In this document: in pieces, positions 4,758 to 17,659 of the stretch
How positions within the stretch are numbered: position 1 is the first letter of the stretch
Layout: each line of letters opens with the position of its first letter
Origin: Ignavibacteriales bacterium
GTDB taxonomy: Bacteria > Bacteroidota > Ignavibacteria > T3Sed10-11
Direction of reading: 5' to 3'
Length of the DNA stretch: 46,575 nucleotides
NCBI GenBank assembly: GCA_003568415.1
Contig: PWXV01000188.1
Location: 1 to 46,575 of the forward strand
Made by a program: the position numbers and the translations under genes
Notes under the pieces: generated by a model
Databases searched by the model: none
Told to the model about the DNA's origin: nothing
What the model saw: the letters and a program-made list of their open reading frames with translations, nothing else

Positions 4758-6050
4758 TTACAACATCGTTACCAGAGGATCTTCAAGCATTCGCTTGAAA
4801 TCGCGCAGAAATTCCGCTCCCACGGCTCCGTCAACTACCCGGTGATCGCACGACATGGTGACACGCATTGTTCTGCCGACAGCAAGCTGTCCATCACGCA
4901 CAACGGGTTTTTCCACTATCGCACCGGTTGCAAGTATCGAACTCTCGGGAGGATTGATAATCGCCGAAAACTCTTCGATATCATACATTCCGAGGTTGCT
5001 TATGGTAATGCTTCCGCCTTCATATTCCTCGGGTTGCAGCTTGCGGTTTCGTGCTCGTTCGGCATAATCCTTTGTCTCTTTGGATATCTGGATTATGCCC
5101 TTTTTGTCACAATTTCTCACAACGGGGGTTATCAAGCCGTCATCAAGAGCGACGGCTATTCCAATGTTCACGTCTCCTCTGCGTTTAATGCTATCCTCTG
5201 CCCAGTATGAATTCACACGCGGGTGCTTTAACAGCGCTTGCGCAGCGATCTTGATCATAATATCGGTAAAGCTGACTTTGGATTCCTCCTGTATATCATT
5301 GATGCGCTTTCGTGCTTCCATGATACGTGTCATATCGATTTCTACCGTGAGATAGAAATGCGGAACACTCGTTTTGCTCTCGACCATACGTCGTGCAATC
5401 GCCTTGCGCATTCCGGTAAGCTCGATAGTTTCAGCAACCGGTTCACCGGCAGGTGCAGCCGGCTCCGCTTTCCCGGGTACGCCTTCTTCGATTGCCTTCT
5501 CAATATCACGCTTTACAATACGGCCTTCAGGACCTGAACCATCCAACGCCTTCAGATCGATACCGTGCTCATCGGCCATTTTACGGGCAAGCGGCGATGC
5601 TTTGATCGCACCGTCGTCTCGTGCTGCCGGTTTTCGTTCCGGCTCTTCACGCTTCGGCTGTTCTTTTTCAGGTTCTTTCTTTTCTTTCTCCGGCTCTTTT
5701 TTCTTTTCCTCTTTTCCCTCTTCTTTCTCCTCGTCTTTTTCTTCTTTCTTTGATTCCTCTACTTCTTTCTTTTCCTCCCCGTCTTCTTTTAAAAGGTCAT
5801 CTACTTTTTCTCCCTCTTCGCCGATGATTGCTATCACATTACCAACGGATGCTCCCTTTCCTTCGGGCACTACAATTTTTAACAACGTCCCGCTATCGAA
5901 CGCTTCAAGTTCCATATCTGCTTTATCGCTCTCAACTTCAGCGATCACCTCACCCTGCTCTACCTGGTCGCCTTCCTTTTTTAGCCATTTCAGGATCTTT
6001 CCCTCTTCCATCGTGTCGCTGAGTTTCGGCATTTGTACTTTAATTGCCAT
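4758..6050 (-). CDS. pdhC: Pyruvate dehydrogenase E2 (acetyltransferase)
   Basis: 430 residues; dihydrolipoamide acetyltransferase forming the core of the pyruvate dehydrogenase complex. One lipoyl domain lies at residues 1-78, with the mitochondrial-type PKLSDTMEEGKI and the lipoyl lysine K43 in ESDKADME. A peripheral-subunit-binding domain is at about 151-188 (ASPLARKMADEHGIDLKALD, then GPEGRIVKRDIEKAI). The catalytic domain ends with SCDHRVVDG, catalytic H403. The linker at about 82-142 is odd: a dense Lys/Glu polyampholyte instead of the usual flexible Ala/Pro hinge. It starts 8 bases after the E1 beta gene behind GAGGT, so coupling is likely. It is the last gene of the lipoyl block; no terminator follows before the ribosomal promoter. 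Confidence 0.95.
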   Translation of the reverse strand: MAIKVQMPKLSDTMEEGKILKWLKKEGDQVEQGEVIAEVESDKADMELEAFDSGTLLKIVVPEGKGASVGNVIAIIGEEGEKVDDLLKEDGEEKKEVEESKKEEKDEEKEEGKEEKKKEPEKEKKEPEKEQPKREEPERKPAARDDGAIKASPLARKMADEHGIDLKALDGSGPEGRIVKRDIEKAIEEGVPGKAEPAAPAGEPVAETIELTGMRKAIARRMVESKTSVPHFYLTVEIDMTRIMEARKRINDIQEESKVSFTDIMIKIAAQALLKHPRVNSYWAEDSIKRRGDVNIGIAVALDDGLITPVVRNCDKKGIIQISKETKDYAERARNRKLQPEEYEGGSITISNLGMYDIEEFSAIINPPESSILATGAIVEKPVVRDGQLAVGRTMRVTMSCDHRVVDGAVGAEFLRDFKRMLEDPLVTML

Positions 6051-6058
6051 TAGTTACC

Positions 6059-7042
6059 TCACTCTTCAATGTATAAGACTTTTTTAATTGCTTTTTTAAC
6101 GCGGGCAACGCTAGGCAGAGATGCTTTTTCGAGATTCGATGCGTAGGGCATCGGAACATCCGCCTGATTGACACGCTCAACCGGTGCATCGAGATAATCG
6201 AATGCCTTCTGCTGCACACGGGTTGCAATCTCCGAACTTACGCTCGCAAAAGGCCATCCCTCTTCAACGATGACTATACGGTTTGTCTTCTTGACCGAGT
6301 CTATAATCATTTCATCGTCAAGCGGACGGATCGTTCGCGGATCAATGATCTCAACATCAATATCCTCTTCTTGTAACTCGTCTGCTGCCTGCTTCACAAC
6401 ATAATACATCTTCGACCATGTTACAACCGTAACATCTTTCCCTTCGCGCTTTACATCTCCTTCTCCGATCGGTATTGTGTGCTCCTCTTCGGGTACCTCA
6501 CCCTTTTGGCCATACATCACTTCGCTTTCGAGAAAGATCACAGGATTATCATCGCGGATTGCAGATTTCAATAATCCTTTCGCATCGGCCGGTGTCGATG
6601 GTGCGATGACATACAAGCCGGGCACGTGTGCATAGAACGATTCAAATGACTGCGAGTGGGTTGCAGCCAGACCGTGAGCGGCACCATTCGGACCGCGAAT
6701 AACCATCGGCATTTTAAACTGTCCGCCCGACATATACCGCATCTTTGCGGCATTGTTGAATATCTGATCCATCGCAAGAATTGAAAAATTAAACGTCATC
6801 ATCTCGACGATCGGACGCAACCCGACCATTGCCGCGCCGATACCGATACCGGTAAAACTCGCTTCAACGATCGGCGTATCGATGACACGCTTCTCACCGA
6901 ATTTTTGCAATAGGCCTGCAGTTACTTTATACGCTCCCTGATACAACCCGATCTCTTCTCCCATAATAAATACATCTTCATCATGCTCCATCTCCTCAAC
7001 CATTGCTTGATTAAGGGCTTCACGCCACGTAATAATTGCCAT
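6059..7042 (-). CDS. pdhB: Pyruvate dehydrogenase E1 beta subunit
   Basis: 327 residues, normal for the separate beta subunit of the E1 heterotetramer (thiamine diphosphate-dependent decarboxylation of pyruvate). Family segments are REALNQAMVEEMEHDEDVFI (residues about 6-25), MGEEIGLYQGAYKVTAGLL, the VIDTPIVEASFTGIGIGAAM region (near 54), NGAAHGLAATHSQSFESFYA (near 119) and the GWPFASVSSEIATRVQQ segment in the C-terminal domain. The RGPNG-x-HG-x2-THSQ pattern is of pyruvate dehydrogenase type, unlike the branched-chain paralogue at 10543. It lies 35 bases after E1 alpha and 8 bases before E2. Confidence 0.93.
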   Translation of the reverse strand: MAIITWREALNQAMVEEMEHDEDVFIMGEEIGLYQGAYKVTAGLLQKFGEKRVIDTPIVEASFTGIGIGAAMVGLRPIVEMMTFNFSILAMDQIFNNAAKMRYMSGGQFKMPMVIRGPNGAAHGLAATHSQSFESFYAHVPGLYVIAPSTPADAKGLLKSAIRDDNPVIFLESEVMYGQKGEVPEEEHTIPIGEGDVKREGKDVTVVTWSKMYYVVKQAADELQEEDIDVEIIDPRTIRPLDDEMIIDSVKKTNRIVIVEEGWPFASVSSEIATRVQQKAFDYLDAPVERVNQADVPMPYASNLEKASLPSVARVKKAIKKVLYIEE

Positions 7043-7077
7043 GCTTTTCTGTTCTCCTTCATACTTACATTACAATA

Positions 7078-8148
7078 TTAATCTACATATACATCGGTAT
7101 ACAGGTCATCGAGCGGTGGTTCTTCGCTCTCTTCTGCGTACTCGATCGCTTCGTTAACGGTTTTCTTAATTTCTTCGTCCATACTCTTCAAATCTTCATC
7201 GGAAAGAATGTCCTCTTTCTTTAAAAGCTCCCCGAAATTAACTATCGGGTCTTTCGCCTTCATCTCTTCCACTTCTTCCTTTGTACGGTAATGACCGTGA
7301 ATCGGATCGGACATCGAATGACCGCGGAAACGATACGTACGTGCTTCAAGAAACGTGGGGGTGTGTTCGTTCCGTGCACGGTCAACAGCTTCTTTTGTTT
7401 TTTTATACACATCGATGATATCCATACCATCGACAACGTCGCGCGGCATATCGTATGCCGAAGCACGTTCGTAGATATCCCACACAGCAAATGCCCGCTC
7501 AAAAGCAGTACCCATACCGTAACGGTTATTTTCGCAAACATACACAACGGGCAGTTTCCATAATGCAGCCATATTTAAGGTTTCATGGAAAACGCCCTGA
7601 TTTGCAGCGGCATCACCGAAGTAACAAACCGTCACATCCTGCTCCGCTCTATATTTTGATGCGAAAGCAAAACCGGCAGCGAGCGGAATATGACCACCAA
7701 CGATGGCGTGTCCGCCCATCATACGTTTTTCTGCATCGAAAAGGTGCATCGATCCGCCTTTTCCCCGCGAGCAGCCGGTAACCTTACCGAACAACTCTGC
7801 CATTACCTCGTTTGCAGAAATTCCACGCACGAGCGCGTGGCCATGATCACGGTATGCCGTCAAAAAGTAATCCTTTTCACGGGTTGCAGCATTGCCACCG
7901 ACGGCGACGGCTTCCTGTCCGTTATACAGATGGCAAAAACCCATGATCTTTTCCAATCCATACATCTGTGCTGCCTTTTCTTCAAATCTTCTAATGAGCA
8001 GCATATCCTTATACATCTGTATTAATTTTTCCTCGGATAGGTCTACTCCCTTTAACGGATCTTTTTGTTTAGATAGTGTTTTTTTTATCGGTTTGTCAAA
8101 TGAAGATTCTTTCTTCTTGTTTTTTTTAGGTGCAGCAGATTTCGCCAT
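7078..8148 (-). CDS. pdhA: Pyruvate dehydrogenase E1 alpha subunit
   Basis: 356 residues. It binds thiamine diphosphate and starts pyruvate oxidation with the beta subunit. After a Lys-rich extension of about 35 residues come YKDMLLIRRFEEKAAQMYG, GFCHLYNGQEAVAVG and YRDHGHALVRG. The phosphorylation-loop region reads YRFRGHSMSDP. The ThDP/Mg motif reads GDAAANQGVFHE ... ENNRYGMGT: the usual GDG is GDA here, a small change at a conserved site, while the Asp ligand and the closing NN are kept. Context (E1 beta, E2 next, lipA upstream) supports pyruvate as substrate. It starts 67 bases after lipA. The decarboxylase subunit of acetoin dehydrogenase is the main alternative and less likely. Confidence 0.92.
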   Translation of the reverse strand: MAKSAAPKKNKKKESSFDKPIKKTLSKQKDPLKGVDLSEEKLIQMYKDMLLIRRFEEKAAQMYGLEKIMGFCHLYNGQEAVAVGGNAATREKDYFLTAYRDHGHALVRGISANEVMAELFGKVTGCSRGKGGSMHLFDAEKRMMGGHAIVGGHIPLAAGFAFASKYRAEQDVTVCYFGDAAANQGVFHETLNMAALWKLPVVYVCENNRYGMGTAFERAFAVWDIYERASAYDMPRDVVDGMDIIDVYKKTKEAVDRARNEHTPTFLEARTYRFRGHSMSDPIHGHYRTKEEVEEMKAKDPIVNFGELLKKEDILSDEDLKSMDEEIKKTVNEAIEYAEESEEPPLDDLYTDVYVD

Positions 8149-8215
8149 TCGTTTCTCCTGTTTAAGTAATAAGTTGGTTCAAGAAAAATAATATCAATTA
8201 CAGATCAGCATTTTA

Positions 8216-9112
8216 TCATACGTGTTTCTCGGCATGATACGAACTCCGGACAAGCGGTCCCGACTCGACGTGTTTAAACCCCATCCCGCGTCCTTTTTCA
8301 CGGTACATCGTAAATTCATCCGGATGAACGTAACGTTCGATCGGAAGATGATTTTTTGTCGGTTGGAGGTACTGACCGATGGTAAGGATATCGCACTCAA
8401 CATCACGGAGGTCCTGCATTAGTTCAAGAACTTCATTAGGATTTTCCCCGATGCCGACCATTATACCGCTTTTCGTGAGGAAGTTTCGCTTCTTTGCCCT
8501 ACGTAATAATTCAAGTGATTGCTTATACTTTGCCTGCGGTCTCACGATACGGTACAATCGAGGTACCGTCTCAACATTATGATTCAAGACGTCCGGTTGT
8601 GCATCGAGCACTATGGTTAGTGCTTCTTCAGATCCTTTAAAGTCGGGGATCAATACTTCGATCTTGCAGCCGGGTACTTCTTCACGGATAAGCCGGATGG
8701 TTTCGGCAAAGATCGGTGCACCGCCGTCTTTTCGTTCATCGCGGTTTACCGATGTGATTACTGTGTGACGTAACCCCATCTGCTTCACTGCATCGGCAAC
8801 CCGCCGCGGTTCATCCCAATCAAGGATTCCGGGTCGACCGGTTTTCACTGCACAGAACCCGCAACTACGCGTACACGTATCGCCGAGTATCATAAACGTT
8901 GCGGTTCCGGCACTCCAGCACTCACCCATATTCGGGCACCGCGCCTCTTCACACACGGTGTGAAGCCGCTGCTGACCGACCAGGTTTTTAATTTTTGAAT
9001 ATTGCTCACCGCCGGGTACGCGCGCTTTCAACCACTCTGGACGCCGCCGCTTGGGCTCCTCCGCTGTCGTGTTTGCTTGGTGTATCGGTGTTTCCTGTAT
9101 TATAAATGTCAT
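8216..9112 (-). CDS. lipA: Lipoyl synthase
   Basis: 298 residues; a radical-SAM enzyme that inserts two sulfurs into octanoyl groups on E2 and GcvH. Both iron-sulfur motifs are present. The auxiliary cluster ligands are in [12 protein letters not shown] (near residue 54), and the SAM cluster is in CTRSCGFC (near 80). The C-terminal RSSYHAEK with the auxiliary-cluster serine is intact. GIMVGIGE and [21 protein letters not shown] are also family-typical. It lies inside the block of its own target proteins, between the branched-chain E2 and pdhA. The 108 bases before it hold heptad repeats. With lipB at 14721 this gives the full LipB-LipA endogenous pathway; no lplA is visible here. Confidence 0.97.
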
Positions 9113-9146
9113 TTCTTTGTTTTGTGTTTTGTATAGTTATGTTACT

Positions 9147-9218
9147 AGTTATCGGTTATCGGTTAACAGTCGGTCATCGTAAGTTTACAAATAACTAATA
9201 ACTATTAACCATTAACTT
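9147..9218. repeat. Inverted heptad repeat blocks
   Basis: Between lipA and the E2 gene, AGTTATC, GGTTATC, GGTTAAC run in phase (9147-9167). After 23 bases an opposite-orientation block follows: ATAACTA, ATAACTA, TTAACCA, TTAACTT (9191-9218). The second block is roughly the reverse complement of the first, so the pair could fold into a long imperfect hairpin. The unit resembles the AGGTATC/AGGTAAC units at 702-715. Confidence 0.75.
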
Positions 9219-9220
9219 AA

Positions 9221-10495
9221 TCATATATTCTGCTTAACATCAAAATTCTCCAGGTTCTCAACCACGTTCTGCAGGAACATCCCGCCAAGCGCGCCGTCGA
9301 TCAAACGATGGTCGTACGACATACTGATATATACCATCGGTTTGATCGCGATCATATCGTCAACAACAACCGGTCGTTTCTTGATAGCACCCACACCGAG
9401 TATGGCAAGCTGCGGTTGATTGATGATCGGTGTTCCCCACAGGTTACCGAAGATACCGGGATTGGTTATGGTAAAAGTACCACCCTGTACATCTTCTGGA
9501 TTTAATTTTTTATTCCTGGCACGTACCGCGAGGTCGTTTACCGCACGTGCAATACCGGTAAGATTTTTCTCGTCGGCATTTTTAATAACGGGAACGATCA
9601 AACCATTCTCAAGCGCGACCGCAACCCCGATATTAATATATTTTTTCATCAATATTTTATCGCCCTCAATCGATGCGTTAATCATCGGGTATTTTTTCAA
9701 CGCTTTGATAACTGCATCGACCATAAACGGCGTGTAGGTCAGCTTAAATCCTTCTCGCTTCTCAAATGTCCCCTTGTGCTTTTCACGGAATGCATATATG
9801 CGTGACATATCCGCTTCGGTAACCGAGCTGACGTGCGGAGAGGTCTTCACACTTTGCACCATATGGTCGGCGATCTTCTTGCGCATGGTATCCATCGCCA
9901 CAACATCAACACCGTCGCGTGAGACTTCGACCTGTGGTGCGGCAGGTTCCGGTGCCGGCCGCTCTTCAACTTTACCCGCTTTTTTGTCCTCGATATACTT
10001 AAGTATATCTTTTTTAGTTACCCGGCCGCCGGCCCCCGAACCCGGAACGTTTTCAAGCTCTGCCATACTAACATTTTCTTTACGCGCTATGTTCAAAACA
10101 AGTGGTGAATAGAACCGGTCTTTCGGTTTATCTTCTTTCGGAGCCGGTGCAGCAGAGGGTTCTGATTTCGGTTCTGCCGCTTCTTCGACAGGCTCCGGTT
10201 CCTTTTCTTCTGCCGGTGCTTCCTGCTGTGCCTCCTGCTGAACCTCACCGTTCCCCTCGGTCTCAATGTGTGCAATCACTGTCTGCACCTCGACGGTTTC
10301 GTTTTCCTCAACGAGTATTTTCTTGAGCGTACCCGATGTCGGAGACGGAATTTCTGAATCCACCTTATCGGTACTTATTTCAAGCAGTGTTTCATCTTTC
10401 TGTACTTGATCGCCGATTTTTTTGTGCCACTTGACAACTGTTCCTTCGGCAATGCTCTCGCCCATCTGGGGCATAACAACTTCAACGGTAGCCAT
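9221..10495 (-). CDS. bkdB: Branched-chain 2-oxoacid dehydrogenase E2
   Basis: 424 residues; lipoyl-bearing acyltransferase. The lipoyl domain is at residues 1-78 with MPQMGESIAEGTVVKWHK and the lipoyl lysine K44 in EISTDKVDSEIPSP, the pattern of the branched-chain/2-oxoglutarate class. An Ala/Pro/Glu linker covers 82-127. The subunit-binding domain is at about 129-170 (YSPLVLNIARKENVSMAELE, GAGGRVTKKDI). The catalytic domain ends with SYDHRLIDGALGG, catalytic H396. It follows the matching E1 beta by 47 bases. A 2-oxoglutarate role cannot be excluded from sequence alone, but separate E1 alpha and beta genes next to it fit a branched-chain complex. Confidence 0.85.
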   Translation of the reverse strand: MATVEVVMPQMGESIAEGTVVKWHKKIGDQVQKDETLLEISTDKVDSEIPSPTSGTLKKILVEENETVEVQTVIAHIETEGNGEVQQEAQQEAPAEEKEPEPVEEAAEPKSEPSAAPAPKEDKPKDRFYSPLVLNIARKENVSMAELENVPGSGAGGRVTKKDILKYIEDKKAGKVEERPAPEPAAPQVEVSRDGVDVVAMDTMRKKIADHMVQSVKTSPHVSSVTEADMSRIYAFREKHKGTFEKREGFKLTYTPFMVDAVIKALKKYPMINASIEGDKILMKKYINIGVAVALENGLIVPVIKNADEKNLTGIARAVNDLAVRARNKKLNPEDVQGGTFTITNPGIFGNLWGTPIINQPQLAILGVGAIKKRPVVVDDMIAIKPMVYISMSYDHRLIDGALGGMFLQNVVENLENFDVKQNI

Positions 10496-10542
10496 AGGGA
10501 TCTGGGATTTTTATTGATTATTTAATATTGTTTGTTGATTAT

Positions 10543-11520
10543 TTAAAATTCTAAGAGTTCTTTTACAACCTGCACTACTTTTTTCTTGTTCGGTAAAAAT
10601 TCTTCTTCGAGCGTCGGCGCATAAGGTACGGGTGTATCAAGCGAGCCCATTCTTTTTATGGGGGCATCGAGATACTCGAACGCATGCTCCGTAATAAAAG
10701 CAGATATTTCGCCTCCGATACCACCTGTTACTGTGTCCTCATGAAGAATGAAAACCTTATTCGTTTTCTTTACACTTTCAAGTATTGTTTCTTTATCGAA
10801 CGGCATCAGTGACCGGAGATCGAGTACTTCGATAGTGTACCCGTCATTATTCGCTATTTCTTTTGCTGCGTCGAGTGCTATATGCACTGTCGGTCCGTAG
10901 GTGACTATCGTTGCGTCTTCACCTTCACGTTTTAGGTCCGCTTTGCCGATCGGTACTTCATAATCATCCGACGGGACATCACCTTTTATCCGGCGGTATA
11001 AATACTTATACTCAAAATAAAGAACCGGATCGGGATCGCGTATCGCTGCTTTCATTAAACCTTTTGCATCATATGGTGTTGACGGAGCTACAAGTTTCAA
11101 ACCGGGTTGATGAAAAAACCACGCTTCCGGATTTCTCGAATGAAACGGTCCGCCATGAATATTGCCGCCGGCAGGTAAACGCACCACCATCGGCACCGGC
11201 AATCCCCACCGGTAATGAGTCGTTGCGGTATTGTTCACAAGCTGATTGAATCCGCATGTTACAAAATCGGCAAACTGCATCTCTGCTACCGGTCGCATGC
11301 CAACCAATGCAGCACCCGTCGCTGCACCGATTATAGCAGATTCGGCAAGTACGGTATCAATGACACGGTCTTCGCCGAACTTATCAACAAACCCCTTCGT
11401 CACTTTAAATGCGCCGCCGTAATCGGCAATATCTTCACCAAGGAGAAATACCTCCTTGTCGCGCTCCATTTCTTCCCAGAGCGCAGAAGAAATTGCTTCT
11501 ATGTAGGTTTGTATCGGCAT
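10543..11520 (-). CDS. bkdAB: Branched-chain 2-oxoacid dehydrogenase E1 beta
   Basis: 325 residues. Together with the next gene upstream it forms the thiamine-dependent E1 that decarboxylates 2-oxo acids from Val, Leu and Ile. YIEAISSALWEEMERDKEVF, LLGEDIADYGGAFKVTKGF and the DTVLAESAIIGAATGAALVG segment mark the N-terminal domain. RLPAGGNIHGGPFHSRNPEA is the branched-chain-type counterpart of the pyruvate RGPNG segment. YFEYKYLYRRIKGDVP is characteristic of 2-oxoisovalerate dehydrogenase beta subunits. The C-terminal domain has HEDTVTGGIGGEI. It starts 2 bases after the alpha gene, so the two are translationally coupled. Confidence 0.87.
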   Translation of the reverse strand: MPIQTYIEAISSALWEEMERDKEVFLLGEDIADYGGAFKVTKGFVDKFGEDRVIDTVLAESAIIGAATGAALVGMRPVAEMQFADFVTCGFNQLVNNTATTHYRWGLPVPMVVRLPAGGNIHGGPFHSRNPEAWFFHQPGLKLVAPSTPYDAKGLMKAAIRDPDPVLYFEYKYLYRRIKGDVPSDDYEVPIGKADLKREGEDATIVTYGPTVHIALDAAKEIANNDGYTIEVLDLRSLMPFDKETILESVKKTNKVFILHEDTVTGGIGGEISAFITEHAFEYLDAPIKRMGSLDTPVPYAPTLEEEFLPNKKKVVQVVKELLEF

Positions 11521-11522
11521 AG

Positions 11523-12548
11523 TTACGGTTTTGCAAATACCCCATCGGTTACTTCGGAGCCGTGCGGATATGATTCCTTGACCGCTTCTTCTGCGGCTTC
11601 ACCGAGTTTCCGGTTTATGGTGTCGTAAATATTTTCTTTTTTACTGTCGCCAATAATATTCCACTCGAACAACTTCTTTTCAAATTGTTCCACGGGGTCG
11701 CGTTCCCGCCAGCGGTCAAACATTTCTTCCGGCACATACGATGCATCGTCATGCGCCGAATGACCATGCATTCGCATCGTTACCGACTCGATTATCGTGG
11801 GCCCTTCACCTGCCCGTGCACGATCGACTGCTTTACGGGTTTCGGTATAAACGTTAAGTACATTCGTACCGTCAATGGTTATTCCGTGTATACCGTACCC
11901 GATTGCCCGGTCGGATAGCTTTTCACAGGCATATTGTTTGTGCACCGGTGTTGAATACGCAAATTGATTGTTCTCGATAATAACTATTAACGGAAGCTTC
12001 ATCACCGATGCCATAGCCAGGGCTTCATGAAAATCACCCACGTTGCTTCCGCCATCACCTATATACGTAAGCACGACCGATTCTTCTTTTCTGTTTTTTG
12101 CCGCAAGTGCAACTCCGTTTGCAACCGGGATCATAGCTCCGAGATGACTGATGTTACCATAGATACGGAGTTCTGTGTCGGCATAATGACCGGTACCATC
12201 GCGTCCCCGGGTTAATCCACTCCCGCGGGCAAGGTGCTGTAGGTACAATTGCAGCGGTGTTTGACCTTTAACAAAGTGTGCCCCGATATCACGATGCATC
12301 GGGAACAGATAATCTTTTTGCCCCAGCGCATAACAACTACCGACGGAAGTTGCCTCATTGCCCCGTCCGGTATATGCACCGCCAACGATCTTACCCTGCC
12401 GGTAGAGTTTTAAGATGGAATTCTCAAACTCACGCGTGAGCACCATAAAATAATACAATCGTTCTGCATCATCCTCGGTGAGGTTGAGACGCTCAAGATC
12501 CGCGGGTAATGTTTCTATCGATTTTTCTTTTACACCGGTTACGGTCAT
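11523..12548 (-). CDS. bkdAA: Branched-chain 2-oxoacid dehydrogenase E1 alpha
   Basis: 341 residues. The ThDP/Mg motif is intact: YIGDGGSNVGDFHEAL ... IENNQFAYSTP. Other family segments are YFMVLTREFENSILKLYRQG (near residue 31), GRGNEATSVGSCYALG, MHRDIGAHFVKGQTPLQLYL, DGTGHYAD and RMHGHSAHDDASYVP. The last is the region phosphorylated in the mitochondrial homologue. It lies 53 bases downstream of the fused E1 gene and directly upstream of its beta partner, all in the same direction. It is shorter than pdhA and lacks the Lys-rich N-terminal extension. Confidence 0.85.
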   Translation of the reverse strand: MTVTGVKEKSIETLPADLERLNLTEDDAERLYYFMVLTREFENSILKLYRQGKIVGGAYTGRGNEATSVGSCYALGQKDYLFPMHRDIGAHFVKGQTPLQLYLQHLARGSGLTRGRDGTGHYADTELRIYGNISHLGAMIPVANGVALAAKNRKEESVVLTYIGDGGSNVGDFHEALAMASVMKLPLIVIIENNQFAYSTPVHKQYACEKLSDRAIGYGIHGITIDGTNVLNVYTETRKAVDRARAGEGPTIIESVTMRMHGHSAHDDASYVPEEMFDRWRERDPVEQFEKKLFEWNIIGDSKKENIYDTINRKLGEAAEEAVKESYPHGSEVTDGVFAKP

Positions 12549-12601
12549 ACTTCGTTATCAGATTAATCAAATTAAGATAAAACTAGTATACATTGGTTTT
12601 A

Positions 12602-14689
12602 CTAAAAATCAGCCAGATCCCGCAATGCTTTCGAAATATCAGCTTCACCCGGCAGCATATCCTGTTCGAGCGGCGGTGAGTACGGAACCGGTGAATCCTT
12701 TGCGGCAACACGCTTGATAGGACCGTCGAGATATTGGAAACAGGTGTCGGCAATACGTGCTGCAATTTCACCACCAAAGCCGCCGGTATATGTGTCTTCG
12801 TGTACTATGAGAACTTTACCGGTCTTTTTCACTGAATTATATATCGCCTCTTCATCAAGCGGGTTCAACGTTCGCAGGTCGATCACTTCAACACTTACAT
12901 CTTCAAGTTTTTTTGCTGCTGCCAGTGTACGGTGTACCATCATGCCGTACGTTATTACAGTAATGTCGTCACCCTCCTGATTCACATTTGCCACACCGAA
13001 AGGCATGAGATAATCTTTATCCGGTTCGGGTGCAGCGGCAAATCCCTGCCGGTACATACCCTTATGTTCGAGGAATAAGACCGGGTCGTTTTCACGGCAA
13101 GCAGTCTTTAAGAGTGCCTTTGCATCTGCACCGTTTGAAGGGAATACAACACGAATACCGGGTATGTGCGTGAAGAATGATTCAATCGATTGACTGTGAT
13201 ATAATCCGCCGCGAATATAGCCACCCACCGCAACACGGATAACCATCGGACACGCAAAGTTACCGTTTGCCCGGTAGCGCAACATAGCTACTTCATCCCG
13301 CAACTGCATGAACGCTGGCCAGATATAATCACCAAACTGTATCTCAACCACCGGTTTAAAACCCCGGACTGCGAGACCGAATGCCGTACCGATAATACTT
13401 GCCTCGGCAAGCGGTGAATTAAAAACGCGCTCCCAGCCGAATTTATCGGTGAGTCCTTTTGTCGCGGTGAACACGCCGCCCTTTTTCCCCGCAACATCTT
13501 CACCGTAGATCAACATCTTCGGGTTATGCTCCATCTCTTCGGCAAGTGCATGATTAACTGCATCCACAAGAACGACGGGTTTTCCACCTGTATCTTCAGG
13601 ATCATGGTAATTTTCTTTTTTTACTTGTAACTCGGGAGCGTAAACATGCAGTTGAGATGTTTCCGGTTCCGGCAGCGGTCGTGATTCAGCCCAATCTGCA
13701 GCTTTATCTACAAGTTCTTTTATTTCCGTTCGGATTTTTTCAATATCTTTTTCGGTGAGAATCCCTTCGCTGACCAGGAATTTTTCCATCTTTGGTATGG
13801 GGTCGCGTTTTTTATCTTCTTCAATTTCGGCCGGATCACGGTATTTTTTGTGATCATCCGACGATGAGTGCGGAAACAAACGAACGAGATCGGCATGGAT
13901 AAGACTCGGTCCCTTTCCACTTCGTGCATTGGCAACTGCTTCCTGAGCTACCCGGTATGATTCAAAAAAGTTTGTACCGTCGGTAAGGTACCGGTTTAAT
14001 CCTTTATACCCCTTTACCATCTCATATACCGATTCGCCTGTGGTTTGCTCCTTACGGGTTACGGAGATGGCATACTTATTATCCTGAATAAGAAAAATTA
14101 CCGGTAGCAGTTCACGGCTTGCCCAGTTGATCGCCTCGTGAAATTCTCCCTCGCTTGTAGTTCCCTCACCTGAGGAAACATATACAACTTCATCGGTTCC
14201 ATCTTTCACTGCACCAAGTGCTGTGCCAACTGCTTGCAAAAATTGCGTACCGGTAGGGCTTGACTGTGCAACGATACGCAAATCCTTATCACCATAGTGA
14301 GCAGGCATTTGACGTCCGCCCGAGCTTTTACCTTCAGCGCGGTGCATTGTCTCGAGAAAAATTTCTTCAGGAGTTGAACCGTATTGCAATGAAAATGCGA
14401 TATCACGATAATATGGGTATGCCCAGTCGTGACCGGGCTTCATCGCCCGTGCAGTAGCAATCTGTGCCGCTTCGTGCCCTGAACCGCCGATGTGGAAGAA
14501 TGCTTTCCCCTGCCGCAAAAGAATCATTGTCTTATCATCCATCATGCGGGATGTAAGCATCATTCTATATACATCGATTGTTTGCTTTTCATCAAGTCCT
14601 AATTCTTTTATCGCTTTAATCGATGCTTTACCGTCTTTTCCCTTTGCCACGGTTTCCTCAACCACATTTTTATTTGTCTGAGCAGACAT
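12602..14689 (-). CDS. Fused alpha-beta 2-oxoacid dehydrogenase E1
   Basis: 695 residues: an E1 alpha domain (about 1-350) joined to an E1 beta domain (about 365-695) in one frame. The alpha half has YRMMLTSRMMDDKTMILLRQ, GSGHEAAQIATARAM and SSGEGTTSEGEFHEAI ... IQDNKYAISVT. The ThDP/Mg motif is therefore GEG...DN instead of GDG...NN. The beta half has GEDVAGKKGGVFTATKGL, SPLAEASIIGTAFGLAVRG, VGGYIRGGLYHSQSIESFFT and HEDTYTGGFGGEIAAR. Such fusions are common in Bacteroidetes and are usually annotated as 2-oxoisovalerate dehydrogenase; the substrate is not proven. No dedicated E2 accompanies it: it lies between lipB and the branched-chain genes. ATG 14689 has a GGGAGG ribosome site. Confidence 0.9.
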   Translation of the reverse strand: MSAQTNKNVVEETVAKGKDGKASIKAIKELGLDEKQTIDVYRMMLTSRMMDDKTMILLRQGKAFFHIGGSGHEAAQIATARAMKPGHDWAYPYYRDIAFSLQYGSTPEEIFLETMHRAEGKSSGGRQMPAHYGDKDLRIVAQSSPTGTQFLQAVGTALGAVKDGTDEVVYVSSGEGTTSEGEFHEAINWASRELLPVIFLIQDNKYAISVTRKEQTTGESVYEMVKGYKGLNRYLTDGTNFFESYRVAQEAVANARSGKGPSLIHADLVRLFPHSSSDDHKKYRDPAEIEEDKKRDPIPKMEKFLVSEGILTEKDIEKIRTEIKELVDKAADWAESRPLPEPETSQLHVYAPELQVKKENYHDPEDTGGKPVVLVDAVNHALAEEMEHNPKMLIYGEDVAGKKGGVFTATKGLTDKFGWERVFNSPLAEASIIGTAFGLAVRGFKPVVEIQFGDYIWPAFMQLRDEVAMLRYRANGNFACPMVIRVAVGGYIRGGLYHSQSIESFFTHIPGIRVVFPSNGADAKALLKTACRENDPVLFLEHKGMYRQGFAAAPEPDKDYLMPFGVANVNQEGDDITVITYGMMVHRTLAAAKKLEDVSVEVIDLRTLNPLDEEAIYNSVKKTGKVLIVHEDTYTGGFGGEIAARIADTCFQYLDGPIKRVAAKDSPVPYSPPLEQDMLPGEADISKALRDLADF

Positions 14690-14720
14690 GCAAAACCTCC
14701 CGATTTATGATCTGCATTAA

Positions 14721-15437
14721 TTAAACTGCTTCTTGTTGTTTACCAATTGCAGGATGCGCTGCAATTTCAGATTTCTCTACCCGGGTCAATACAACATCAA
14801 ATACTTCCTCAAACTCCTTAACCAGAAACGGAAGCACCTGATGAATTTTTATCTCCTGATTGAGAACATCCGTCATCGATGTTACACCTTTATGAAAAAT
14901 ACCGCACGGTATTATTTTACCGAAATACGTCAGATCGGTATTTACATTGAATGCAAATCCATGCATTGTGACCCATCGGCTTACTTTTATTCCTATCGCT
15001 GCGATTTTTTCGCCGCCGACCCACACACCGGTTTCGCCGTTTGAGCGTATTCCGGCTATATCAAAATGTTTTAATGTTCGAATCAGCACTTCTTCCAGCT
15101 GGCGCAAATACCAGTGAATATCTTTCCTGTACCGTTCAAGGTTCAATATCGGATACCCAACAATCTGTCCGGGACCGTGATATGTTATATCACCACCTCT
15201 GTCGATTGCGTAATACTCGGCTCCGGCTTGCTTGAGATCATTATCATTCGCGAGCAAATGATCTGCGTTCCCTCCTTTACCGAGTGTAAAAACATGATTA
15301 TGTTCGTTTACCAAGAATATATCTTCACGACGTTCTTCAGCCACAGCCGAATGCAGTGATCTCTGTAAATCCCACACTTCACCAAAGTGTGTTCGACCAA
15401 GATCACAATAATGAACGATATGTCGATCTTGTTGCAC
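14721..15437 (-). CDS. lipB: Octanoyl-[ACP]:protein N-octanoyltransferase
   Basis: 238 residues. It transfers octanoate from acyl carrier protein to the lipoyl lysine of E2 and GcvH, the step before LipA. RGGDITYHGPGQIVGYPILN (near residue 80) is the family signature. The catalytic pair is visible as Lys in KIAAIGIKVSRWVTMHGFAF and Cys in GKIIPCGIFHKGVTSM. The start is GTG at 15437: AGGT lies 7 bases upstream and no in-frame ATG occurs before conserved sequence. It sits 26 bases after lpd and 31 bases before the fused E1, in the same transcription unit. Confidence 0.96.
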   Translation of the reverse strand: MQQDRHIVHYCDLGRTHFGEVWDLQRSLHSAVAEERREDIFLVNEHNHVFTLGKGGNADHLLANDNDLKQAGAEYYAIDRGGDITYHGPGQIVGYPILNLERYRKDIHWYLRQLEEVLIRTLKHFDIAGIRSNGETGVWVGGEKIAAIGIKVSRWVTMHGFAFNVNTDLTYFGKIIPCGIFHKGVTSMTDVLNQEIKIHQVLPFLVKEFEEVFDVVLTRVEKSEIAAHPAIGKQQEAV

Positions 15438-15463: not shown

Positions 15464-16879
15464 TTACGTATGAATCGACTCACCATATGCATCGCCGGCT
15501 GCTTCCATTATTGCCTCTGCGAGCGTCGGGTGAGCATGAACTGTACGAACGATTTCTTCTTTTGTTGCTTCAAGTGTTTTCGCCATGCCGAGTTCAGCGA
15601 TCAACTCGGTGGCTTCACTGCCGACGATATGTGCACCGAGCAGTTCTCCGTATTTTGAATCAAAGATCAGTTTCACAAATCCGTCGGTCTCTCCTGCTGC
15701 TATCGCTTTTCCATGCACACGGAACGGATACCGCCCGACTTTAATAGCATATCCTTTTTCTTTTGCCTGGTCTTCGGTTAAACCGATCGACGCAACCTGC
15801 GGTTGACAATAGGTACAACCGGGAATATTATCATAATTTATCGGATGTGTTTCAGCATCTGCAATTTTCTCAACACAAACAATACCCTCATGCGAAGCAA
15901 CGTGCGCAAGCCACGGTGCTCCGATCACATCTCCTATAGCATATATTCCATCGACATTTGTACGATAGTATTCATCGACTTTAATGTGTCCTTTTTCAGT
16001 CTTTACTCCGACTTTGTCGAGTCCTATATCTACGATGTTACCCTGTACCCCGATAGCCATCAGTGCCACATCCGCTTTGAGGTCCTGCTTTTTCCCGTCT
16101 TTACCTGACACCGTAACTTTGACGCCTTTACCGGATGTATCGATTTTTTCAACCTTTGTTTCGGTATGAATATCCATACCTGATTTTTTAAATTTATCGG
16201 CAACGACTTTAGTCACTTCTTTATCTTCCACCGGAAGAATCGTTGGCATCATCTCAACCAGGGTAACTTTCGTTCCAAAAGCATTGTAAAAATAAGCAAA
16301 TTCAACACCTATAGCACCGGCACCGATAACGATCATAGATTTGGGCACCTCTTTCGGCACCATTGCCTCAAAATAAGACAGTATCTTTTTACCATCAATG
16401 TCTACATCGGGAATTGAACGCGGACGTGCGCCTGTTGAAATGATAATGTGTTTTGCAGTGAGTGTTTTTTCGGGCTTTTTGTCTTCTTTCTTTTTATATA
16501 TACCGACTTTACCCTTCTCATTAATTTTACCAAAACCGGAAATATGTTCGATTTTATTTTTCTTGAATAGAAATTCAACACCCTTGGAAATACGCTCGGA
16601 GATCTTCCGGCTCCGTTTGATCACCTTCTCGAAATCAAATGAAAGATCTTTTACAGTAATCCCGAATTCTTCGGCATTATTCATCAGATTGTAAAGTTCG
16701 GCATTTCTCAACAGCGCTTTAGTGGGAATACATCCCCAATTCAGACAAATACCCCCTAATTTATCGCGTTCTACCACAGCGACCTTCATACCTAACTGAC
16801 TTGCCCTAATCGCCGCTACATAACCACCGGGACCGCCTCCGACAATTACAACATCAAAATTCGTCTTGGATTCTGCCAT
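15464..16879 (-). CDS. lpdA: Dihydrolipoamide dehydrogenase (E3)
   Basis: 471 residues. This FAD flavoprotein reoxidises dihydrolipoyl groups with NAD+. The FAD fold VVIVGGGPGGYVAAIRASQL is at residues 10-29. The redox disulfide is C45/C50 in GGICLNWGCIPTK. The NAD fold is IVIGAGAIGVEFAYF, and the C-terminal HAHPTLAEAIMEAA carries the catalytic His-Glu pair. I chose ATG 16879 because it gives the normal N-terminus; an upstream in-frame ATG at 16930 would add 17 unconserved residues. It is the only E3 in the window and probably serves both E2 complexes and the glycine cleavage system. It is the first gene of the block, with a promoter and an internal terminator in its leader. Confidence 0.95.
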   Translation of the reverse strand: MAESKTNFDVVIVGGGPGGYVAAIRASQLGMKVAVVERDKLGGICLNWGCIPTKALLRNAELYNLMNNAEEFGITVKDLSFDFEKVIKRSRKISERISKGVEFLFKKNKIEHISGFGKINEKGKVGIYKKKEDKKPEKTLTAKHIIISTGARPRSIPDVDIDGKKILSYFEAMVPKEVPKSMIVIGAGAIGVEFAYFYNAFGTKVTLVEMMPTILPVEDKEVTKVVADKFKKSGMDIHTETKVEKIDTSGKGVKVTVSGKDGKKQDLKADVALMAIGVQGNIVDIGLDKVGVKTEKGHIKVDEYYRTNVDGIYAIGDVIGAPWLAHVASHEGIVCVEKIADAETHPINYDNIPGCTYCQPQVASIGLTEDQAKEKGYAIKVGRYPFRVHGKAIAAGETDGFVKLIFDSKYGELLGAHIVGSEATELIAELGMAKTLEATKEEIVRTVHAHPTLAEAIMEAAGDAYGESIHT

Positions 16880-16953
16880 ATCTGTATTTCCCCGTATTAT
16901 TTTCACTTCGCTCAAATGATTAAAAAACAATTAATTAATGTTAATTAGTAAAC

Positions 16954-16981
16954 AAAAAAAGGGAACATTGTATTCCCTTTT
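16954..16981 (-). terminator. Intrinsic terminator in the lpd leader
   Basis: A 9-bp stem (AAAAGGGAA 16957-16965 with TTCCCTTTT 16973-16981) has a 7-base loop. On the minus strand it is followed by an unbroken T-run that extends the stem's 3' side to seven T residues. It lies downstream of the lpd promoter and upstream of the lpd start, so it must either end a small RNA or act as an attenuator. Confidence 0.75.
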
Positions 16982-17106
16982 CCTTCAAATTAATTCGTTT
17001 CGCTCATTGATTAAGAAAGAATTAATTTTCAACGCCCGCAAGTAGTTTCTGATGACAAATTTTTGTATCTTTAAAATTGCGAAAAATGTAAAACAAATGA
17101 ACATAA

Positions 17107-17135
17107 AATATACTGAAAAAGCAGAACACTGTCAA
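17107..17135 (-). promoter_or_regulatory. Promoter of the lipoyl block (lpd)
   Basis: On the minus strand TTGACA (17135-17130) and TATATT (17112-17107) are separated by exactly 17 bases: a full -35 match and 5 of 6 at -10. Predicted start near 17100, giving a leader of about 220 bases before the lpd ATG. Confidence 0.75.
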
Positions 17136-17185: not shown

Positions 17186-17659
17186 ATGAGCGCAGGTAGC
17201 GAAAACGGAAAACAACGCGTCATTATAACCAACCGAAAAGCGCGGCATGAATACCACATCGATGAGGTGTATGAGGCAGGTATAGCGTTGAAGGGTACCG
17301 AGGTTAAATCACTCCGGCTCGGAAATGCGAACCTGCAGGACAGCTATGCATTTGTCCGGGCTGGTGAGGTTTTTCTTGAAGGAATGCACATCAGTCCGTA
17401 TGAATTTGGTAATCAGTTTAACCATGAACCCAAACGCGAACGGAAATTATTGCTGAATAAACGGGAAATTCGCAAACTCATCGGTAAAACGAAAGAAAAG
17501 GGATTTACGCTCGTCCCGCTCAGTGTGTATTTTAAAAATGGTAAAGCAAAAATCGAACTCGCCCTTGCACGTGGAAAAAAGAGCTACGATAAGCGAAAAA
17601 CAATAGCAGAACGCGATGCAAAGCGTGAACAGGAACGTGAACTCCGACAGAAATTTTAA
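17186..17659 (+). CDS. smpB: SsrA-binding protein SmpB
   Basis: 157 residues. It delivers tmRNA to stalled ribosomes for trans-translation. The OB-fold shows [20 protein letters not shown] (near residue 12), [20 protein letters not shown] (near 32), and [40 protein letters not shown] and [19 protein letters not shown] are at the C-terminal end, whose basic tail ([10 protein letters not shown]) enters the mRNA channel in known homologues. ssrA itself is not in the window. tyrS starts 14 bases after the stop, with its ribosome site overlapping that stop, so the pair is probably coupled. Confidence 0.97.

Follow-up and report, generated by a model that had tools for sequence, protein, structure and literature searches.

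Does the short region between smpB and lpd, in which a promoter is followed by a terminator before the first gene, control the ten lipoate and 2-oxoacid dehydrogenase genes beyond it, and by which kind of mechanism? The window, i.e., the entire analysed stretch of 46,575 nucleotides (from the genome referred to as G000), carries lpd for dihydrolipoyl dehydrogenase on the minus strand at 15464-16879 (ATG at 16879; TIGR01350, 591 bits, over the cut-off). It is the first gene of a block whose nine further members (4758-15437, minus strand; NCBIfam matches) are lipB, a gene for an E1 alpha-beta fusion, E1 alpha, E1 beta, a sucB-like E2, lipA, pdhA, pdhB and a pdhC-like gene. No minus-strand terminator was found from 16954 to 2258, and the ten genes are presumably co-transcribed. 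The fused E1 alpha and beta form one protein of 695 aa (12602-14689) that is followed by the separate E1 alpha and E1 beta, with the full pdhABC set further on. On the other side lies smpB (17186-17659, plus strand; ORF named from sequence), which is divergent to lpd. Divergent tyrS-smpB is common to the family of the window (f1), several f12 genomes and a single f3 genome; some f18 genomes have only smpB divergent to lpd. Because smpB is divergent in G000 and several relatives, the terminator there serves no upstream gene on the same strand.

The near-consensus leftward promoter reported by the first-pass annotation is present at 17135-17107 on the minus strand, with TTGACA at 17135-17130, a 17-base spacer and TATATT at 17112-17107. 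It matches the consensus at 11 of 12 positions, and hexamers and spacing are invariant in four congeners. A scan of 2.5 kb returned eight matches of at least 9/12 (4.7 expected), with 11/12 reached by TTGACA-N17-TATATT alone. The -10 element AGTATATT (window positions 17107-17112) reads AATATACT on the opposite strand, and in congener G003 the smpB ATG is only a few bases from the -35 element, so smpB may use an overlapping divergent promoter. With the start placed 7 nt beyond the -10 element (~17100), the positions of promoter and terminator predict a leader RNA of ~147 nt (16954-17100, minus strand) in G000, as compared to 114-120 nt in three congeners.

The leader ends in a putative intrinsic terminator (16954-16984, minus strand), identified by RNA folding, conservation and its recurrence before lpd in families f12, f17 and f18. 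The 9-bp stem and T7 run described previously are both there: the arms AAAAGGGAA (16981-16973) and TTCCCTTTT (16965-16957) pair, and the T run occupies 16960-16954, so that four of its seven T fall within the 9-bp stem. In the extended form, a stable hairpin with a 14-bp stem is followed directly by the T7 run. It folds with -13.4 kcal/mol (z -3.9), and none of 200 shuffles was as good. The stem has three G-C pairs only and is thus weak; it is invariant in four congeners, while the loop varies. From these features, the hairpin would be expected to work as a terminator.

The genus comparison comprised G000 and three congeners (G002, G003, G005), all of which retain the smpB-lpd intergenic region; an lpd orthologue was not found in the incomplete assemblies of two further genus members, G001 and G004. 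Between pairs of the four species, the promoter is 83-97% identical, a 45-nt block between promoter and terminator (AAAGATACAAAAATTTGTCATCAGAAACTACTTGCGGGCGTTGAA, 17028-17072, minus strand) 87-96% and the terminator 83-98%, as opposed to 31-53% at fourfold sites of lpd and 41-79% in the first part of the leader. The excess over the fourfold sites indicates that promoter, block and terminator are under purifying selection. Loss of the promoter or the stem in relatives had been named beforehand as grounds for abandoning the element; both are kept in the three congeners.

The 45-nt block is G+C-richer and occurs in a single copy per genome. By pattern search of 391 class genomes it is confined to the genus and absent from the 385 others. 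A covariance model (R1) searched in 149 genomes recovered, outside the genus, only terminators (L129-L131) that are unrelated and were rejected as relatives of the leader. The block folds no better than shuffles and is mostly unstructured. RNAalifold gave no antiterminator beyond an interrupted hairpin of 6 bp with the four sequences, which are too few and too similar. A small hairpin (CAG-AAACTAC-YUG) is possible in the leader, and the helix flanking the terminator has one double change from A-U to U-A, in four sequences for which covariation is uninformative.

An upstream inverted repeat had been suggested to take part in an alternative fold. The repeat itself, AATTAATTC (17027-17019) and GAATTAATT (16996-16988), is present in the window. 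It belongs, however, to a 32-bp dispersed repeat copy (16996-17027, minus strand) that is missing from the three congeners, which have a single AATTAATT at this site. The 32-bp repeat, AATTGTTTTTTAATCAATGAGCGAAGCGAATT, has five strict copies in G000, 38 in G004 and two in G003, some of them in tandem with a 32-bp period; the many genomic copies and the empty site in relatives are those of a dispersed palindromic repeat. We therefore rejected the inverted repeat as an antiterminator and regard it as a lineage-specific insertion. A second, related copy with many matches in G000 lies between terminator and lpd (16896-16932) and is likewise absent in the congeners; the distance from T run to ATG is 74 nt in G000 vs 36-43 nt in congeners without this copy. 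Both insertions lengthen the leader and leave promoter, block and terminator untouched. Like REP-type short palindromic repeats, these elements are short, dispersed and partly tandem with a GCGAAGC-like hairpin core, which explains the inverted repeat seen initially; unlike in REP-type systems, no Y1 transposase (PF01797) was found in G000, although such transposases are present in four congeners. Repeats in the window and at L148, L154, L155 and L156 have a TTAATCA..GAGCGAAGCGAA core, and in some copies the core is swapped for other perfect hairpins, e.g., TGATTCACGACGAAGTCGTGAATCA.

The layout is not restricted to the genus. We read the sequence 5' of lpd orthologues in many families, and f1, f12, f17 and f18 carry it. 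In f12, f17 and f18, a promoter of the form TTGAC(T)..TATATTTT precedes a hairpin and T run, and the lpd ATG usually comes 14-53 nt later; the motif TTGAC(T/A)..TATATTTT thus also precedes lpd outside the family of the window. The stem sequence varies by family with the pairing kept (AAGGGAA/TTCCCTT, AGAGGG/CCCTCT, GGGT/ACCC), whereas leader sequence is not conserved outside the genus and no common motif was seen by eye across leaders of different families. Loops were misaligned in a MAFFT alignment of 28 hairpins, which was excluded from pair counts. Shortly before the GAAG (or AAGAA) of the terminator, three f12 leaders (L185, L187 and L264, three sequences only) have CTTC (or TTCTT), which could form an antiterminator in that sub-group.

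By one fixed criterion, 18 of 49 lpd leaders in the four families have the layout (16 of 43 after removal of a few genomes counted twice) and 1 of 57 in other families. The lpd leader of G000 itself is missed by this criterion, its promoter having been displaced beyond the 220-nt search region by the repeat insertions. As a control, 401 gene starts in ~1.07 Mb of G000, G061 and G026 were searched by the same criterion for promoter and terminator within 130 nt of the start codon; this gave three matches, one of which is lpd of G061, leaving 2 in 400 others. The enrichment (Fisher p 3e-17 for 18/49 vs 2/400, 3e-6 vs the 1/57 lpd leaders elsewhere, and 2e-11 vs 2/400 when counted roughly by genus) is indicative, as related sequences are not independent. 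On the lpd tree, the trait takes 10 changes as compared to 20.7 with shuffled labels; for the tree only, several f17 and f18 cases with interrupted T runs and imperfect stems were added by eye, and losses are over-counted as some rows lacking the trait have no upstream sequence. The layout is absent in several members of f12, f17 and f18 and almost throughout the lpd leaders of other families. In f16, the terminators that lie ahead of lpd were rejected as evidence, as they come after the stop codon of the preceding gene and before the promoter of lpd.

How lpd is transcribed in these relatives bears on the function of the element. Most leaders, mainly in f12 and f17, have only 14-53 nt between T run and lpd ATG, often including a Shine-Dalgarno-like sequence. 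In f12 and f17, the search for a promoter in this gap found none (best promoter-like pairs at most 7/12). In f1 the best promoter-like score in the gap is 8-9/12, with changing position and hexamers; over all relatives, scores after the terminator are 5-9/12. The terminator thus lies between the promoter of the operon and its first gene, with no promoter found after it in most relatives. Given such a short promoterless gap, the most economical interpretation is that transcription reaches lpd through the terminator; an attenuator is thereby favoured over a stand-alone small RNA.

At the level of sequence, the promoter, the terminator, their conservation, the lack of another promoter before lpd in relatives and the recurrence in four families are established. 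We consider it likely, on this basis, that the region serves an lpd-lipB-2-oxoacid dehydrogenase-lipA-pdh operon as a transcription attenuator in the 5' leader. RNA polymerase would start at ~17100, transcribe the leader, and either stop at the weak hairpin and T7 run (16984-16954) or continue into lpd and the remaining nine genes. In this genus, an RNA-binding protein or another factor acting on the 45-nt block would favour or prevent formation of the hairpin. The mostly unstructured block is likely the input here; a protein or other trans factor is favoured by the missing Rfam match, fold and conserved ORF and by the short leaders of f12. The operon would accordingly be expressed by read-through, the read-through fraction would be regulated, and the attenuator probably sets the expression level of the cluster. 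Of the three layouts offered by the first-pass annotation, the attenuator in front of the ten genes for lipoate and 2-oxoacid dehydrogenases is borne out by promoter, terminator and conservation in relatives; the riboswitch is not, given that there is no Rfam match, and the small RNA has become less likely since relatives have neither room nor a promoter between terminator and lpd.

The main rival is a constitutive, leaky terminator that cuts expression of the operon by a fixed fraction and senses nothing. The weak stem with its three G-C pairs could indeed be leaky and unregulated, and no conserved antiterminator or alternative fold was found, nor a conserved leader outside the genus. However, a leaky terminator would not need the 45-nt block, which is under strong selection in the genus, and a weaker promoter would serve equally. 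We regard this explanation as unlikely, though it is the strongest of the alternatives.

Still less probable is a small RNA gene of ~115-147 nt whose product acts in trans, with lpd having its own promoter. The promoter-terminator unit is complete, it is present in one copy in each genome, and the unstructured, conserved and G+C-richer block could be a pairing seed. Yet the promoterless gap of 14-53 nt in relatives speaks against it, the RNA would measure only ~50 nt in f12, and the element accompanies lpd from family to family.

A riboswitch, with the terminator governed by binding of a metabolite (lipoate or thiamine diphosphate, for instance) to the leader, would suit the layout, the enzyme content, the conserved block 5' of the terminator and the possible small hairpin. 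The leader shares its position and possible terminator control with the metabolite riboswitches among the cis-regulatory families of Rfam, but it matches none of 4227 Rfam families and has no structured aptamer. The window gave no gathering hit (the best match, at E 0.3, fell far short of the cut-offs), and relaxed thresholds gave nothing credible; the structure search proposed earlier for the leader thus yielded neither an Rfam match nor, for the conserved block, a fold that is stable or covaries. In addition, the block is restricted to one genus, and in some f12 leaders the stem is preceded by just ~26 nt, not enough for a known aptamer, which makes a classical riboswitch unlikely. Neither a lipoate riboswitch nor attenuation of pdh was reported in the literature searched, and we give this reading very little credence.

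The weakest proposal, a leader-peptide attenuator of the trp or ilv kind sensing branched-chain amino acids, could draw on the trp leader peptide of the G000 organism and on a few f17 leaders with short ORFs, rich in Ile/Leu/Val, that stop immediately ahead of the stem (e.g., L249), but it is scarcely tenable, as no conserved short ORF with regulatory codons was found in the genus or in f17, sister genomes L256 and L260 lack the start codon, the ATG of the G000 ORF is AAG, TTG or ACG in three congeners, and A+T-rich DNA yields such codons by chance. The short ORFs before the terminator in L249 (MESYAFCIFLVIVLYML), L255 and L258 are not conserved in sister genomes and are possibly a product of chance.

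Transcription attenuation as such is in use in this organism. A scan for leader terminators at 58 divergent gene starts (305 kb of G000) gave lpd and trpE as the cases within 100 nt of the start. The trpE leader (L291, contig C32; trpE start near 8851, minus strand; TrpE named from sequence) encodes MNTNYKAYRPAIKNRFNWAWWWYIYTHIGVLGEET, a WAWWW peptide, and has a strong terminator 94 nt before the predicted trpE start; judged by these features it is a textbook trp attenuator, and it serves as a positive control of the screen. Both leaders contain a terminator; L291 has the WAWWW peptide and a stem of -23.7 kcal/mol, whereas lpd has no conserved peptide and a stem of -13.4 kcal/mol. With the trp, pyr and bgl attenuators the lpd region shares promoter, leader, intrinsic terminator and a one-pathway operon, in a layout kept in relatives. 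It differs in its target operon, and neither a known effector site nor a conserved antiterminator or leader peptide was found. The putative attenuator would thus be a known kind of element, of which no lipoyl-operon example was found in Rfam or the literature searched; transcription attenuation of pyruvate or branched-chain 2-oxoacid dehydrogenases was likewise not found there.

It is tempting to extend the attenuator to a class-wide system in which a dedicated sensor couples read-through to lipoate, acyl-CoA or branched-chain 2-oxoacid status, a proposal that we put forward tentatively and hold to be doubtful. The sensor would then probably be an RNA-binding protein on the 45-nt block in this genus, with different leaders elsewhere. 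RNA-level control has been little studied in this bacterial group, and a terminator retained ahead of lpd in four families is a concrete point from which to seek a sensor of lipoate or of central carbon status.
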